37,195 nt of DNA, from contig JAFEBR010000055.1 in NCBI GenBank assembly GCA_018242565.1, positions 1-37,195 on the forward strand, read 5' to 3'. The notes beneath the pieces are model-generated. The model saw nothing but the letters and a program-made list of their open reading frames with translations, had not been told where the DNA came from and made no database searches. Of the stretch, positions 29,680 to 36,711 are shown in pieces (positions within the stretch are counted from its first letter, which is position 1; every line of letters begins with the position of its first letter). Source of the DNA: Planctomycetota bacterium. Its GTDB lineage: Bacteria; Planctomycetota; Planctomycetia; Planctomycetales; Planctomycetaceae. The translations under genes and the position numbers were made by a program.

Positions 29680-30564
29680 CTACTTGTTGTCGCCGGCGTC
29701 GACCTTGGCCTTTTCGTTTTGAGCCTGCGACACTTCCGGATTGGGTGTCGCATCGCCGGGTTCGAGGCCCAGGACCCACTTAATGCCACCCAGAATTGAC
29801 TCGATGAAATTCTTGTTCGCCCAGGTTTCGGTGTTGTGCCCCAGGTTGGTGTAGAAAATGCGGCCTTCGCCCCAGTTTTTCACCCACGACACGGGCACGT
29901 GATACGGCTTCTTGGTGGGGCACTTGGCGATGTTCAGGCTCATCAGCACGTGCACCTTCTCGGGTTGCCAGTGCTTGTACTGGTAGATTTCATCCTTGAT
30001 CTGAAATTCTTCGCCCCAGACTTTGCTGGCGGGATGCTTCGTGTCGTGTACCGAGATCGTGACCGTTTCGCCGGCGTTCCAGGGGTGACCGTTGAAGGTT
30101 CCGCCAATCATGTCCCAATACGGTTCGTATTCGCCGTAGGTGTCGGTGGATGAGTGCGTGGCGACAAACCCGTGTCCCTTCTGCTTCAACCAGGTATTCA
30201 GGAAATACTCCATGTTCGCCTTGGGAATCTCGAGGTCGGGTCCCTGGGTGTAAAAGAACACGATGTCGTAGTTCTTCAGATTCTCGGGAGTGAAATCCTT
30301 CGCGGGGTCCTGAGTGCAATCGACCGTGAACAGACCGCTCGACTGCCCGAGTTGGGTGATGGCGACTTCTGACGGTGCGAGCGTCTCTTTGTCGCGCTTC
30401 ACCGGGTTGTGGGTGAAGGTCTTGGAGGTCGTGACCATCAGGATCCGGTACTTTTTGGGAGCCTGGGCACGAGCCACTTCAGCCCCTCCCTGAACCAGAC
30501 CTAAACACCATACCGCCACCGCCAATCCAATCACCGACCAGCGCGACTTGATTGAATTCCACAT
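29680..30564 (-). CDS. Secreted ThuA-like domain protein
   Basis: The 294-residue protein has a signal peptide (about 1-34). The mature part begins with KYRILMVTTSKTFTHNP and continues with YDIVFFYTQGP, GHGFVATHSSTD and GGTFNGHPW. It then has GRIFYTNLGHNTETW, the ThuA/glutamine-amidotransferase-like fold common in planctomycete secreted proteins. The family was named from trehalose use, but its reaction is unknown in most members. A role in extracellular carbohydrate handling is possible. The C-terminal 25 residues are charged and probably disordered. It is on the same strand as fhcD, 124 bases upstream of it. Confidence 0.88.
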   Translation of the reverse strand: MWNSIKSRWSVIGLAVAVWCLGLVQGGAEVARAQAPKKYRILMVTTSKTFTHNPVKRDKETLAPSEVAITQLGQSSGLFTVDCTQDPAKDFTPENLKNYDIVFFYTQGPDLEIPKANMEYFLNTWLKQKGHGFVATHSSTDTYGEYEPYWDMIGGTFNGHPWNAGETVTISVHDTKHPASKVWGEEFQIKDEIYQYKHWQPEKVHVLMSLNIAKCPTKKPYHVPVSWVKNWGEGRIFYTNLGHNTETWANKNFIESILGGIKWVLGLEPGDATPNPEVSQAQNEKAKVDAGDNK

Positions 30565-31048: not shown

Positions 31049-32287
31049 CTAAATCCCCGGCACGGGGAAATTCTTGCAGAATTCGCGGATTTCCTGGCGA
31101 ACTGTAGACAGGTTCGCTTCGTCATCCGGCTTCCGCAGGACCTGCAGTATCCACGCCCCGACGCGCTTCATCTCGGCTTCTTTCATGCCACGAGTCGTCA
31201 ACGCCGGAGTACCGATGCGGATCCCACTCGGATCCAGCGGCTTGCGCTGATCGTAGGGGATCATGTTCTTATTGACGGTGATGCCAGCCTTGTCGAGTGC
31301 TTTCTCGGCGATGCTGCCGGTCAAACCGATGGCGGTCACGTCGGCCAGCATCAGGTGGTTGTCGGTGCCGCCACTGGCGAGTTGAATGCCTCCCGACAGC
31401 AGAGTTTCCGCCAGGACTTTGGCATTCGCAATGATCTGCTTCGCGTATTCCTTGAAGGCAGGCTGCATCGCTTCCTGAAAACAGACCGCCTTGGCGGCGA
31501 CGACATGCATAAGCGGCCCCCCCTGCATCCCCGGAAAGACCGTCTTGTCGATCGCCTTGGCATTCGCCTCTTTGGTCAGCACGAACCCGGATCGGGGTCC
31601 GCGCAATGTCTTATGCGACGTACTGGTCACAAAATCAGCGACCGGCACCGGACTGTTATGCAAACCAGCAGCCACCAAACCGGCGTAGTGCGCCATGTCC
31701 ACCATGAACAGCGCGCCAACTTCACGGGCGATTTCCGCGAACTTCGCGTGATCGATCTCTCGGGGATAGGCACTGGCGCCAGTGACAATCAGTTTGGGTT
31801 TGTGCTGTCGCGCCAGCGAAACCACCTGATCAAAGTCGATCCGATGGTCGGTCTGGCGCACGCCGTAATGCACCGCGTTGTACAACTGACCCGAGAAATT
31901 CAGGTTCATTCCATGGGTCAAGTGACCGCCGTGGGCCAGATTCAACGCCAGATAGGTGTCGCCCGGCTTCAAAACGGTCAGGTAGACGGCCATGTTGGCC
32001 TGCGAACCGGCATGAGGCTGCACATTCGCATGCTCGGCACCGAACAGTTGGCAGGCCCGGTCTCGCGCCAGCGACTCGATCACATCGACATATTCGCAAC
32101 CGCCGTAATACCTGCGACCGGGGTAACCCTCGGCGTATTTGTTGGTCAGAACCGTTCCCGCTGCTTCCAGAACTGCTGGACTCGTATAGTTTTCGGAGGC
32201 GATCAGTTCGAGTCCGTCGCGCTGACGGGTCATCTCGTGCTGGAGAGCTTCCCAGATCGCCGGATCGTTCGATTTCAATGCAGACAT
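31049..32287 (-). CDS. glyA: Serine hydroxymethyltransferase
   Basis: The 412-residue protein has the normal length of the family. [11 protein letters not shown] (27-37), [13 protein letters not shown] (51-63) and the PLP-lysine motif [12 protein letters not shown] (Lys226) are all present. HAGSQAN and VDMAHYAGL are also intact. The PLP-dependent enzyme interconverts serine and glycine and charges tetrahydrofolate with a C1 unit in the cytoplasm. It stands alone, divergent from the BRCT-MerR-TPR gene across 183 bases that contain a strong palindrome. No Shine-Dalgarno is clear. It could share C1 supply with the nearby fhcD, but the two use different carriers. Confidence 0.96.
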
Positions 32288-32328: not shown

Positions 32329-32351
32329 CCCACGGGCCTGAATCCCGTGGG
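32329..32351. repeat. Perfect 8-bp palindrome in a divergent intergenic region
   Basis: CCCACGGG (32329-32336) and CCCGTGGG (32344-32351) are exact inverted copies around a 7-base loop. The element is REP-like. A perfect TATAAT follows at 32367-32372, so the palindrome covers the place of a -35 box for the plus-strand gene. It could serve as an operator for that MerR-like protein, but this is speculative. Confidence 0.65.
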
Positions 32352-32470
32352 ACCTCAACGGTCATTTATAATTTAGGAGGCCGGCAAACGCTACTCAGGT
32401 TGCCGTTCGCCGGGTATCTTCGTTCTTAACGGTTGCCCACCCCTCAGTTGCAGCAAACATCGACCGACCC

Positions 32471-33718
32471 ATGGAGACAGTTGACCCCGTGACCAGCGTA
32501 CCCCAGGCACTTCCCCTGGCGGGTGAACGCGTCGCCTTCACCGGGACTCTGGCTTCCATGACGCATCGGGAAGCCCATGCCGAGGTCGAGCGCCAGGGAG
32601 GAACCGCCAGTGAACATGTCAGCCGCCAGACCACTTTGCTGGTCGTGGGGGAAGAAGGCTGGCCACTGGAACCCGACGGCCAAACTTCGGTGAAATTGCA
32701 GCACGCCGAACGCCTGCGAACCGAAGGTCGCGATCTGCGGATCATCCGTGAATCGGAATGGCTCGACTTCATCGGTCTGCACAGTCACCGCGATGCGCTG
32801 CATCGACTCTGTACGCCCGCCATGTTGAGTCGCATGCTCGATGTGACAGTTCACGAAATCCGTCGCTGGGAACGCTTGGGGCTGATTCAGGCTGTCGAAC
32901 ATGTCTGCCGGCTGCCCTATTTTGATTTTCAGGACGCGGCCGGCGTCAGTCGACTGGCCGCACTGGTCAACGCTGGCGTGCCCATTCGCGCCATCCAGAA
33001 CAGCCTGGCCCAGTTGGAGTCGGTCCTGGGAGTCGGGTCGCGACCGCTCATGCAATTGGAAATCCTGGCCACTGACCGCAAGATCGTGTACCGCGACCTG
33101 TCCGGCCGTTTGAAGACGACCCATGGCCAGCGATTGTTCGATTTTGACGGACCTGCTCCCGACGACGATTCGGGTCCCGCCACGATTCCCCTGCCGGTCC
33201 CTGAACCCGGCGCGCCCAACCGCACGAACTGGACTGCTGGCCAATGGTTTGACGAAGGACGTCGTCTGGCCGACGAAGGACAGATCGAAGCGGCCATCGA
33301 AACCTTGCGCATGGGGCTGATGAGCGAGCACGACGCGCCGGAAATCCACTTTCAATTGGCCGAACTGCTGTATCGCCAGGGCGAAACGCGGGCCGCACTC
33401 GAGCGATATCACGTCGCCGTCGAAATCGATCCGAACTATCTTGAAGCCTGGACCCAGATTGGCTGCCTGTTGTCGGAACTCGGCCAGCATGACGAAGCCA
33501 TTCAGGCATTCCGCATTGCCATCGACGTGCATCCCGATTATCACGATGCCCACCTGCACCTGGCCGAGTCACTGCACCAGGCCGGCCGCTCGCCAGAAGC
33601 CGCAGACCACTGGCGAAAGTACCTGGAGTTCGACCACTCGGGCCCCTGGGCCGATGCCGCCCGGCAGCGACTCGAAGAGTTCGAAAAAACAGCCACTGAT
33701 CCGGCCACCCAGCCCTGA
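32471..33718 (+). CDS. BRCT-MerR-TPR fusion protein
   Basis: The 415-residue protein has three parts. Residues about 16-100 form a BRCT-like domain resembling the C-terminus of DNA ligase (GERVAFTGTLASMTHREA, GGTASEHVS, TTLLVVGE and the final W). Residues about 112-185 look like a MerR-type winged helix: TPAMLSRMLDVTVHEIRRWE, then YFDFQDAAGVSRLAALVNAG. Residues about 255-405 are TPR repeats, including ALERYHVAVEIDPNYLEAW. The linker is proline- and acid-rich. A DNA-binding regulator that reads protein partners is inferred; its targets are unknown. No cysteine ligand set for metal sensing is seen. The next gene follows after 41 bases, so co-transcription is possible. Confidence 0.82.
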   Translation: METVDPVTSVPQALPLAGERVAFTGTLASMTHREAHAEVERQGGTASEHVSRQTTLLVVGEEGWPLEPDGQTSVKLQHAERLRTEGRDLRIIRESEWLDFIGLHSHRDALHRLCTPAMLSRMLDVTVHEIRRWERLGLIQAVEHVCRLPYFDFQDAAGVSRLAALVNAGVPIRAIQNSLAQLESVLGVGSRPLMQLEILATDRKIVYRDLSGRLKTTHGQRLFDFDGPAPDDDSGPATIPLPVPEPGAPNRTNWTAGQWFDEGRRLADEGQIEAAIETLRMGLMSEHDAPEIHFQLAELLYRQGETRAALERYHVAVEIDPNYLEAWTQIGCLLSELGQHDEAIQAFRIAIDVHPDYHDAHLHLAESLHQAGRSPEAADHWRKYLEFDHSGPWADAARQRLEEFEKTATDPATQP

Positions 33719-33759: not shown

Positions 33760-34944
33760 ATGTCACCCACTGATTCACTCTGGCTGTCGACCCTGTCGGC
33801 CGGCGATCGCCAAGAACTCACAACTCTGCCCCAGGCTGAATTGCTGCCGACTCCCGATGTTCTGGTCGTGGGTGCCGGAATCGTCGGTCTGGCTACGGCA
33901 TATTACCTCGCCGAGCAGGGCGCGAAAGTCCAGGTGATCGAAGCCGAGTCCATCGCGGCAGGCGCCAGTGGTACCAACGCAGGCGGTGTCTGGCCCAATG
34001 ATCAGGGCCCAGCCCACGGCCCAGGGTTCCAGGATCTGGCCTTCATGAGCCGTGATCTGTGGGGCCGGTTATCGCTCCGGCCAGGTTTCGAACTCGACTG
34101 GCGCGTGAATGGTTTTCTCAACGTGAATCCCGAGCGATTTCGTCCATCGGCCGCGGAGGTCGCGACGACGTATCAGAATCAGGGTTACACGGTGCACGCG
34201 GTGGACAGCGAGCAGGTGGCGCGCCTCGAACCGCAGTTGCGGCCAGGTCTGGCCGCTGGTCTGCACTACCCTTCCGAAGCCCATCTGCATCCGGTCAAGG
34301 CGGCGCTGTCGTTTGCCCGGGCGATCCGCGCGCGAGGTAGTCGTATCGCGTGCGGCGTTTCGGCCGTGGCGGGCACTTGCGAGGGGAATCGACTGACCGC
34401 CGTCGAGACCAGCGGCGGGCGCTGCACCCCCCGGTTCGTCGTCTCGGCGACCGGTTGGACGACCGCCTGGATGGCGCCATTTGCAGGCGCGTTGCCTCCA
34501 CTGCGGCCAGTCGGTGGCCAACTGCTCGCGAGCGCCCCACAACCACCCGTCTTGAAAGGGACGGTCGCCGGCGACTATCTGATCCTGCAGTTGCGCACCG
34601 GCGAAATCGTGACCGGGGGGACCCTGCGCGAATCAGCCGACCTGGCACCCGACCCGGAATTGACGAAAAAGATCGCCGCGGCAGCGCGGGACCTCATTCC
34701 CGCCTTACGCCACGTGGAATTCAACCGCGTCTGGTGTGGGCTCCGCTCGGCGACTCCGGATGGCCTGCCAGTGATCGATCGCCTGCCCACTGTTGGCAAC
34801 CTGTTCCTGGCTTCGGGCCATTTTCGCAATGGTGTGTTGCTGGCCCCCGCCACGGGCAAACTGCTCAGCGAGTGGATTCATCAGGACACCCAGCCTGCTG
34901 AGCTGGTTCCGTTTGGGGCCGATCGCTTCCCGGCCCGGGCCTGA
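33760..34944 (+). CDS. DAO-family FAD-dependent oxidoreductase
   Basis: The 394-residue protein has the FAD-binding Rossmann motif VVGAGIVGLATAYYL (about 36-50) with the acidic end of the second strand (VIEAES). It also has GASGTNAGGVWP. Near the C-terminus are the DAO features RSATPDGLPVIDRLP and GHFRNGVLLAPATGKLLSEW. This matches glycine oxidase/ThiO, sarcosine oxidase and D-amino acid dehydrogenase relatives. It should oxidise an amine or amino acid with FAD in the cytoplasm. The substrate cannot be decided. No thi genes are near, which argues little for a thiamine role. Confidence 0.88.
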   Translation: MSPTDSLWLSTLSAGDRQELTTLPQAELLPTPDVLVVGAGIVGLATAYYLAEQGAKVQVIEAESIAAGASGTNAGGVWPNDQGPAHGPGFQDLAFMSRDLWGRLSLRPGFELDWRVNGFLNVNPERFRPSAAEVATTYQNQGYTVHAVDSEQVARLEPQLRPGLAAGLHYPSEAHLHPVKAALSFARAIRARGSRIACGVSAVAGTCEGNRLTAVETSGGRCTPRFVVSATGWTTAWMAPFAGALPPLRPVGGQLLASAPQPPVLKGTVAGDYLILQLRTGEIVTGGTLRESADLAPDPELTKKIAAAARDLIPALRHVEFNRVWCGLRSATPDGLPVIDRLPTVGNLFLASGHFRNGVLLAPATGKLLSEWIHQDTQPAELVPFGADRFPARA

Positions 34945-34979: not shown

Positions 34980-35009
34980 TCGGCAGCGACCAGAGGGTGT
35001 GATACAATG
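34980..35009 (+). promoter_or_regulatory. Candidate promoter for the Ppx/GppA gene
   Basis: TCGGCA (34980-34985) and an extended -10 TGATACAAT (-10 hexamer 35004-35009) are 18 bases apart. Transcription would start near 35016, after a possible in-frame start at 34999, which supports the ATG at 35074 as the start. Confidence 0.5.
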
Positions 35010-35073
35010 GTCCCGAACAAACGGATTCAACAGCCTGAGTCGGCACACTGCCTCGCGGGAAAGAGGGCGTATG

Positions 35074-36711
35074 ATGGAGCACACACCACACCAGGGACCG
35101 GAGGCGACCACGGACAGCCCTATGCCACCCAGCCGTGGGGAACACACGGTCGGGTTCATTGACCTCGGGACAAATTCCGTACGACTGCTGCTCGTGCGGA
35201 TGAATCCCAACCACTCGTACACTGTGCTCAGCGAGCAGAAAGAAACGGTACGGCTGGGGGAAGGCGAATTTCGCAGTAATACCCTGCAGCCCGAAGCCAT
35301 GCGGCGGGCCGGCCTCGTCTGTGCGCGTTTCGCGGAATTTGCCCGCGCCCGCGGCGCGACCGATGTCGTCGCCGTCGCCACCTCGGCCACCCGCGAAGCC
35401 GAGAACCGTGCCGCGTTCGTCCGCCATCTGCGCCATGTGGCCAACATCGACGTGCGCGTGATCTCGGGTAAAGAGGAAGCCCGCCTCATTTACCTGGGGG
35501 TTTCCAGCGGCAGCAACATCGGCAACCGCCAGACGCTGTTTATCGATATCGGCGGCGGCAGCACAGAAACCATTGTGGGTGACCAGAAAGAACACACGTT
35601 TCTCGATTCGATGAAACTGGGGGCGATCCGCCTGACGACCAGGTTCTTCCGCCCCGGCGAGACAGGCCCCGTTTCGCCCGCCCACTACGCCCGAATTCAG
35701 CGCTATGTCAGCACCCGCACTGTGCGAACGCTGGAACGTCTGCGGAATTTCAAAATCGAACAGACGATCGCCAGTTCCGGCACGGCGATGAACCTGGCCG
35801 AAATCGTGATGCGGCGGGAACACAAACGGGGTCTCGCCCGGGGAGACGTCGTCACCCGCGCCCAGTTGCGCAGTGCGATCCAGATGCTCTGCGACTTGCC
35901 GCTGGAACGCCGACGGGAAATCCCCGGCATCAATCCCGACCGGGCCGACATCATCATCTCGGGCGCGGCCATTCTGGAAACTCTGATCCAGGAACTCGAT
36001 CTGCCGGGCTTTGGTATCAGCGAACGCGGTCTGCGTGAGGGACTGCCGATCGACTATCTGTCACGTGCTGACAACGCCCACCTGTTTGAACAGACATCCT
36101 TTCGCGAACGCTCGGTATTGGAATTAGGCCGGCGGTGTGGCTTCGACGAGCCCCACGCGCGACAGGTGGTGCGCATCGCCTGGGAACTTTTCGACTCGGC
36201 CCGTTCGGCCGGCTTGCACAACCTGGGAAGCTGGGAACGCGAACTGCTCGAACATGCCTGCTTACTGCACGACGTGGGGGCGTTCGTCTCGTATTCCAAT
36301 CATCGTTCGCACTCTTACTATTTGATTCGCAACGCCGACCTGCTGGGTTTCGACCAGACCGAAATCTCGATCATCGCCGCAGTGGCTCTGTTCCATCACA
36401 AGGCACTGCCCCGGCTGAAACACCCGGAATTCGCCGAACTCGATAAACGGGCCCGCGACATCGTCCGCATTCTGTGCCTGTTCCTGCGGATCGCCGAGAG
36501 CCTGGACCGGACCCACCTGCAGGCCCTTTCGAGCGTGCGACTGCGACTGGGCAAGAAAAAGAAGAAGGTCTTTCTGGATCTGACACCCAACCGCGATTGC
36601 CATCTGGAACTCTGGGAAGTCCGCACTCACGAACGGGCCTTCGAAACGGTGTTCGGCCGCAAGCTGGCGATTCACTTGCTCGAAAACGATGCGTCCCCCG
36701 CTCCGAGTTGA
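35074..36711 (+). CDS. Ppx/GppA-type exopolyphosphatase with HD-like C-terminal domain
   Basis: The protein has 545 residues from the ATG at 35074; GAGGG lies six bases upstream, and an ATG at 35071 is also possible. The actin-like Ppx/GppA core has VGFIDLGTNSVRLLL (26-40), the phosphate loop ATSATREAENR, GKEEARLIYLGV and LFIDIGGGSTE. A C-terminal HD-type region follows, with HACLLHDVG and later FHHKALP. These enzymes remove phosphate from polyphosphate or convert pppGpp to ppGpp. Sequence alone cannot separate the two activities. It probably has its own promoter. Confidence 0.93.
   Translation: MEHTPHQGPEATTDSPMPPSRGEHTVGFIDLGTNSVRLLLVRMNPNHSYTVLSEQKETVRLGEGEFRSNTLQPEAMRRAGLVCARFAEFARARGATDVVAVATSATREAENRAAFVRHLRHVANIDVRVISGKEEARLIYLGVSSGSNIGNRQTLFIDIGGGSTETIVGDQKEHTFLDSMKLGAIRLTTRFFRPGETGPVSPAHYARIQRYVSTRTVRTLERLRNFKIEQTIASSGTAMNLAEIVMRREHKRGLARGDVVTRAQLRSAIQMLCDLPLERRREIPGINPDRADIIISGAAILETLIQELDLPGFGISERGLREGLPIDYLSRADNAHLFEQTSFRERSVLELGRRCGFDEPHARQVVRIAWELFDSARSAGLHNLGSWERELLEHACLLHDVGAFVSYSNHRSHSYYLIRNADLLGFDQTEISIIAAVALFHHKALPRLKHPEFAELDKRARDIVRILCLFLRIAESLDRTHLQALSSVRLRLGKKKKKVFLDLTPNRDCHLELWEVRTHERAFETVFGRKLAIHLLENDASPAPS

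Follow-up and report, generated by a model that had tools for sequence, protein, structure and literature searches.

In RFC1, BRCT pocket residues of the T/S-G and K kind bind a DNA 5'-phosphate. MerR regulators carry a long C-terminal dimerisation helix, and the MerR operator is a dyad inside the -35/-10 spacer. In eukaryotic end joining, ligase IV and Pol mu/TdT use a BRCT domain near Ku-bound ends. Bacterial NHEJ, in the parts of the NHEJ literature available, is described with two components, Ku and LigD.

The locus studied here lies in a window of 37,195 nucleotides, which is the whole stretch of DNA that was analysed (contig JAFEBR010000055.1, positions 1 to 37,195, of assembly GCA_018242565.1, a Planctomycetota bacterium of the Planctomycetaceae). 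One of its genes encodes a protein that touches each of these systems. Its BRCT domain has the fold, TG loop and phosphate-pocket lysine of NAD+-dependent DNA ligase (LigA) and RFC1, but here it shares one chain with a MerR helix and TPRs, and no ligase or clamp-loader part is present. With MerR regulators (MerR_1, GlnR) the protein shares the helix-turn-helix and wing and the conserved R-x-W-x-R pattern, whereas its model, made for a single chain, has a 14-residue helix (191-204) and a beta-hairpin, with the BRCT domain ahead and the TPRs after. Among the weaker fold matches is a eukaryotic end-joining complex, the Pol mu NHEJ complex 9cq3 (Z 7.8), but unlike ligase IV and Pol mu/TdT the window protein has no polymerase or ligase part, and the likeness is at fold level only. 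As for bacterial NHEJ, relatives of the window protein are encoded directly behind Ku or the ligase, while the window copy lies elsewhere.

No description of this Ku-linked third gene was found in the portion of the open-access literature covered; it may be in print elsewhere, subscription papers lying outside the scope. In the passages covered, PMC7719229 does not mention MerR, TPR or planctomycetes, PMC1378119 does not mention BRCT, and PMC5124664, PMC10932983 and PMC11936186 do not describe a Ku-linked gene.

Architecture and spread of the window gene

The gene is a single open reading frame, and its parts are as follows.

32471..33718, plus strand: BRCT-MerR-TPR coding sequence, 415 aa (ATG 32471, stop 33718)
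32516..32776, plus strand: BRCT domain, aa 16-102, from profiles, model and fold matches, with T24, G25 and K75 conserved
32813..33028, plus strand: MerR-type winged helix-turn-helix, aa 115-186, from Pfam, model and fold match, with R131, W133 and R135 fixed
33086..33145, plus strand: beta-hairpin linker, aa 206-225, ending in a GQ..FDF motif, from alignment and model
33146..33223, plus strand: low-confidence linker of the predicted model, aa 226-251
33233..33697, plus strand: TPR domain, aa 255-409, from Pfam, model and structure matches

The sequence-only reading had proposed a BRCT domain, a MerR helix and TPR repeats in one protein, and both domain searches and structure prediction bear it out. 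In Pfam, MerR_1 matches aa 116-181 with 31.1 bits (cut-off 21.6) and the TPR models match with up to 68.6 bits, also over the cut-off. The BRCT model PF00533 matches aa 15-70 with 17.5 bits, below its cut-off of 21.3, but the domain is clear in other searches: a pol III epsilon model of NCBIfam matches it with its BRCT end (E 5e-16), LigA matches at E 8e-8, and a PDB sequence search finds the RFC1 BRCT domain at E 0.0013. Three relatives at Ku loci have BRCT scores over the Pfam cut-off (28.4, 30.9 and 26.1 bits).

The full-length predicted model has a pLDDT of 87. Because TPR proteins filled the fold list of the whole model, the BRCT and MerR part (residues 1-225) was modelled alone, with a pLDDT of 92.9. 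Its best structure matches are the BRCT domains of LigA (DnlJ; Z 11.0, 2.1 A over 80 residues) and of RFC1 on DNA (Z 10.7), and Foldseek returns the human RFC1 BRCT domain at E 1.4e-4. The MerR fold is matched by the GlnR-DNA structure 4r4e (Foldseek probability 0.99, same model), and TPR structures are found for the TPR region at Z of about 20. These matches establish the three folds. A spurious BRCT or MerR assignment, for which the low Pfam score of the BRCT domain might speak, is highly improbable: the model, the fold matches and the relatives above the cut-off contradict it, and, short of a contrary experimental structure, the fold evidence already refutes it. The BRCT assignment, read from profiles and the predicted model, can be taken as secure despite that score.

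Conservation follows the same parts of the protein. In the main clade the BRCT pocket is kept at T24 in 43/45 rows, G25 in 45/45 and K75 in 42/45, while T24 and K75 are missing from all three rows of family f5. The MerR recognition-region residues R131, W133 and R135 are each present in all 45 main-clade rows. Q220 of the GQ..FDF linker is found in 71/71 tree rows, and the short hairpin with this motif, between the MerR and TPR parts, is a mark of the family.

The gene is a core gene of its Planctomycetes family, present in 145 of 150 genomes and in 118 of the 119 good ones. Since it is conserved at full length across those 145 genomes, the architecture is not a chance product. The window's genome has one copy, and the named relatives are mostly Planctomycetaceae, Schlesneria, Gimesia or Planctomyces. 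One family genome, G299, is 98% complete and has neither the gene nor any glyA match; this double absence is likely an assembly gap, because the two genes are neighbours in most relatives. Across the phylum, the family profile matches in 40 of 294 Planctomycetota genomes at E<=1e-25. No copies were found in the phage sequences searched, and a plasmid search with the BRCT-MerR part of the window protein gave eight records, which are exonucleases or other BRCT proteins aligned over the BRCT part only. The PADLOC defence models include none that covers the whole protein; only short TPR/HTH stretches match.

A tree of 71 rows (the "quick" method, midpoint root, two long-branch joins flagged) groups the main family copies as a branch (96*) and joins them with f5 and f7 in a second one (99*), to which the Ku-linked rows do not belong. 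On this tree the window copy is on a separate branch from the Ku-linked members. Alignment A2 holds 51 of the tree rows; 12 were skipped (L021, L062, L077, L102, L111-L117, L137), and L011, L037, L042, L072, L087, L092, L107 and L138 were also left out. Three second family copies in Planctomycetaceae (L192, L193 and L194) have no NHEJ gene nearby, and L194 has lost its helix.

Linkage to Ku in Planctomycetota, Burkholderiales and rhizobia

Outside the window's class, 20 genomes carry the family, and Ku is matched in 17 of them, in one case as a fragment. By coordinate comparison, all 17 Ku matches are on the contig and strand of the family gene. The chance probability of such co-occurrence is about 1e-14, a figure that ignores relatedness, the 20 genomes falling under 13 family codes. 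The gene order was established in 16 fetched loci outside the class, and in each of them Ku or the ligase precedes the gene on the strand that carries it; the gap measures 0-227 bases at 15 loci and 2156 bases at the remaining one. The commonest order is Ku, ligase, gene, with LigD convergent; the identity of Ku and LigD was confirmed by Pfam in representative loci. Among the Ku-linked planctomycete rows of the alignment the MerR helix is mostly intact (R131 in 15/16, W133 in 13/16), and the BRCT domain is absent from 6/16.

The linkage has exceptions on both sides. Three of the outside genomes (G092, G221 and G283) have the gene and no Ku, and 18 Ku loci outside the window's family have no family gene adjoining. 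Within the window's family, second copies L134, L135 and L137 lie behind Ku, and 18 of the 21 Ku loci examined have no family gene adjoining. The association is strong without being universal, so the family gene marks one kind of NHEJ locus. Ku matches are found in 28 of the 150 genomes of the window's family, 16 of them over the cut-off, against 145 with the gene. Several Ku genes are present in some Planctomycetaceae (G012, with six Ku matches, G375, G410, G432 and others), and for a shorter class of Ku there the alignment stops near residue 238 of the model.

The window's genome, a 96.67% complete assembly, has no Ku or LigD match, while its sister genome has both. The window copy is not directly behind Ku or an NHEJ ligase and adjoins glyA instead. 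The sequence-only reading had suggested a link to DNA damage; gene order with Ku and LigD supports such a link for the family, but not for the window copy, which has glyA as its neighbour and lies in a genome with no Ku or LigD match.

Homologues beyond the phylum show the same arrangement. A plasmid search with a BRCT-less planctomycete member (L114) matched 35 records, 27 with at least 80% cover. In all 27, which are Burkholderiales plasmids, Ku is directly upstream on the same strand; the aligned ends of Ku and the homologue are 3-261 bases apart in 26 and lie across the record start in one. These plasmid proteins are MerR-TPR proteins without BRCT, and a profile comparison establishes their homology to the window's family over the MerR-linker-TPR core (E 5.5e-37). 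Seven of the regions were read (L229-L232, L234-L236): the gene stands behind Ku in all seven, and LigD is annotated in six. Pfam finds MerR_1 in all seven proteins; the score falls below the cut-off for L230, and for L234 it only just reaches it. Their annotations are "tetratricopeptide repeat protein", "TPR repeat-containing protein" and once "MerR family transcriptional regulator". On two of the plasmids, both from Paraburkholderia (L235, L236), annotation places DUF72 genes close to Ku. The Gemmatirosa and Streptomyces Ku loci inspected have no such third gene; in the Gemmatirosa locus, reading suggests a DUF72-like gene directly behind Ku (L233, 5785-6528).

The rhizobial protein encoded behind Ku begins with a BRCT-like part and also carries TPRs, the linker motif and a helix that is degenerate. 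Its gene was found in 87 plasmid records (78 Sinorhizobium, 8 Ensifer and 1 Pararhizobium), and the order LigD, Ku, BRCT-TPR gene holds in 6/6 rhizobial loci examined (L237, L239-L243). Compared by profile with the window's family, the rhizobial proteins align over the BRCT part, what is left of the helix and the linker, with a probability of 98.2 and E 3e-14. Downstream of the BRCT-TPR gene, Pararhizobium A13 (L237) has genes for a hydrolase and for exodeoxyribonuclease III; the S. meliloti ml59 locus (L239) likewise has an annotated exodeoxyribonuclease III gene there. Since BRCT-TPR proteins occur at rhizobial Ku loci, the BRCT domain is not a planctomycete invention and was lost or gained more than once.

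Taken by architecture, the NHEJ-linked members without BRCT are those of Burkholderiales and the six planctomycete rows, and those without the helix are the rhizobial proteins and L137. TPRs are present in all, and no NHEJ-linked member read lacks both BRCT and helix, although the search profiles could have missed such members.

The glyA neighbour and the intergenic region

Upstream of the window gene are a divergent neighbour and two features of the sequence between the genes.

31049..32287, minus strand: glyA, serine hydroxymethyltransferase, named by reading
32329..32351, minus strand: inverted repeat (arms of 8 bp, loop of 7 bases), a probable glyA leader hairpin
32366..32396, minus strand: conserved glyA promoter signature, G.GTAGC-N17-A.TATAA on the glyA strand, from conservation

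Eighty named loci were fetched and 75 were evaluable: glyA is divergent and adjoining in 58, within 6 kb in 4 and absent upstream in 13. ORF clusters other than glyA reach at most 28 of the 80 loci, and some of them are shadow frames. There are no repair genes among the genes read near the window gene. Reading alone also suggests a Ppx/GppA-like phosphatase (34999-36711), an FAD-dependent oxidoreductase (33760-34944) and a ThuA-like protein (29680-30564) nearby.

The signature occurs at fixed spacing in 23/51 glyA-adjacent loci against 0.1 in shuffles, and the window's genome has exactly one exact site, between glyA and the BRCT-MerR-TPR gene. It is also found at 6/10 non-adjacent glyA genes of the same family, and at none of four glyA genes in f5/f7 and none of four in families without the gene. 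Where the BRCT-MerR-TPR gene lies apart from glyA, the signature is missing upstream of it in all 17 loci, so the signature belongs to glyA as its promoter in this family. An operator of the gene's own promoter was considered and rejected, the signature staying with glyA when the genes separate. The protein may plausibly act at the glyA promoter, a possibility confounded by ancestry.

The sequence-only reading had suggested testing DNA binding to the palindrome at 32329-32351; as an operator it was rejected. This strong hairpin has a single copy in the genome, located between the start of glyA and the signature, and in the nearest relative, the sister genome, the arms are identical and the loop is longer. 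Because the arms are kept while the loop lengthens, and because of where the site lies, it reads as an RNA hairpin, probably belonging to the leader of glyA, and not as an operator; it may be a leader control element of glyA. The single copy and the longer loop also disposed of a dispersed repeat. An Rfam search around the palindrome gave no RNA family at E<=1, and the best dyad in the intergenic sequences is shared by only 5 of 50.

Proposed function of the family and its meaning

The relatives directly behind Ku point to a family, so far undescribed, whose proteins probably assist at DNA breaks. The best explanation, with a probability of about 0.55, is that these are DNA-bound adaptors serving NHEJ, and that the copy in Planctomycetaceae does without Ku, its probable role being that of a regulator or scaffold that binds DNA; its target and mechanism we infer. 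The BRCT domain, of LigA/RFC1 type, and the MerR helix would be two DNA-holding modules, either of which may be missing in NHEJ members, and the TPR domain, constant in the members read, would recruit a partner such as Ku, a ligase or another repair protein. The adaptor idea, with exchangeable DNA-holding modules and a constant partner-binding module, comes from BRCT or helix being absent, never both, while the TPRs are always kept. The core copy of Planctomycetaceae persists in Ku-less genomes, divergent from glyA, and would most likely be a Ku-independent DNA-binding regulator or scaffold. The role in NHEJ is read from gene order, and gene order is not function.

The intact MerR helix of most Ku-linked planctomycete rows also fits a plain transcription factor. 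Such a factor would control the Ku operon at NHEJ loci and glyA in Planctomycetaceae, with the BRCT and TPR parts sensing DNA or a partner, and for the window copy, regulation of glyA by a true MerR factor is the main rival, ranked second to the adaptor reading. The intact helix in the window copy and most relatives, the divergent glyA of most evaluable loci and the promoter signature, unique in the genome between the two genes and recurrent in adjacent loci, argue for it. The rhizobial operon proteins, L137 and L194 have, however, lost the helix or keep it in degenerate form while retaining the TPRs, and the signature is the promoter of glyA, not of the gene, while its absence elsewhere may only reflect ancestry. 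We regard a transcription factor throughout the family as unlikely, and regulation of glyA by one as no likelier. The role in transcription that the sequence-only reading had considered is possible for the window protein. As for the phospho-signals also named there, the pocket residues are of the kind with which RFC1 holds a DNA 5'-phosphate.

Slightly less likely is that gene order at glyA has simply been inherited and carries no functional meaning, and that the core copy is a housekeeping scaffold of DNA repair or replication. The loci that keep the gene without glyA in the fetched upstream stretch fit this, as does a BRCT domain nearest to LigA and RFC1; but divergent glyA adjacency persists across many genera, nothing else recurs comparably around the gene, and the neighbours read include no repair gene. 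A bolder form of the adaptor reading is more tentative than the reading itself, though we find it less doubtful than either alternative: the gene would be a third, widely shared NHEJ-operon gene, encoding a BRCT/MerR/TPR adaptor that accompanies Ku in Planctomycetota, Burkholderiales and Rhizobiaceae, with interchangeable DNA-holders and recruiting TPRs, and the Planctomycetaceae copy, having outlived Ku, would as a core factor couple DNA state to one-carbon metabolism via glyA.

The main significance is the unnamed third gene of many NHEJ operons, and not what the sequence-only reading had put forward. The picture of Ku plus LigD would change with a conserved third gene that follows Ku and, in some branches, encodes a BRCT domain as eukaryotic end-joining proteins have. 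S. meliloti carries the Ku-linked gene, which makes a role in NHEJ directly testable. The window copy, core in a family mostly without Ku, presents the adaptor naturally separated from end joining and gives a first functional lead.
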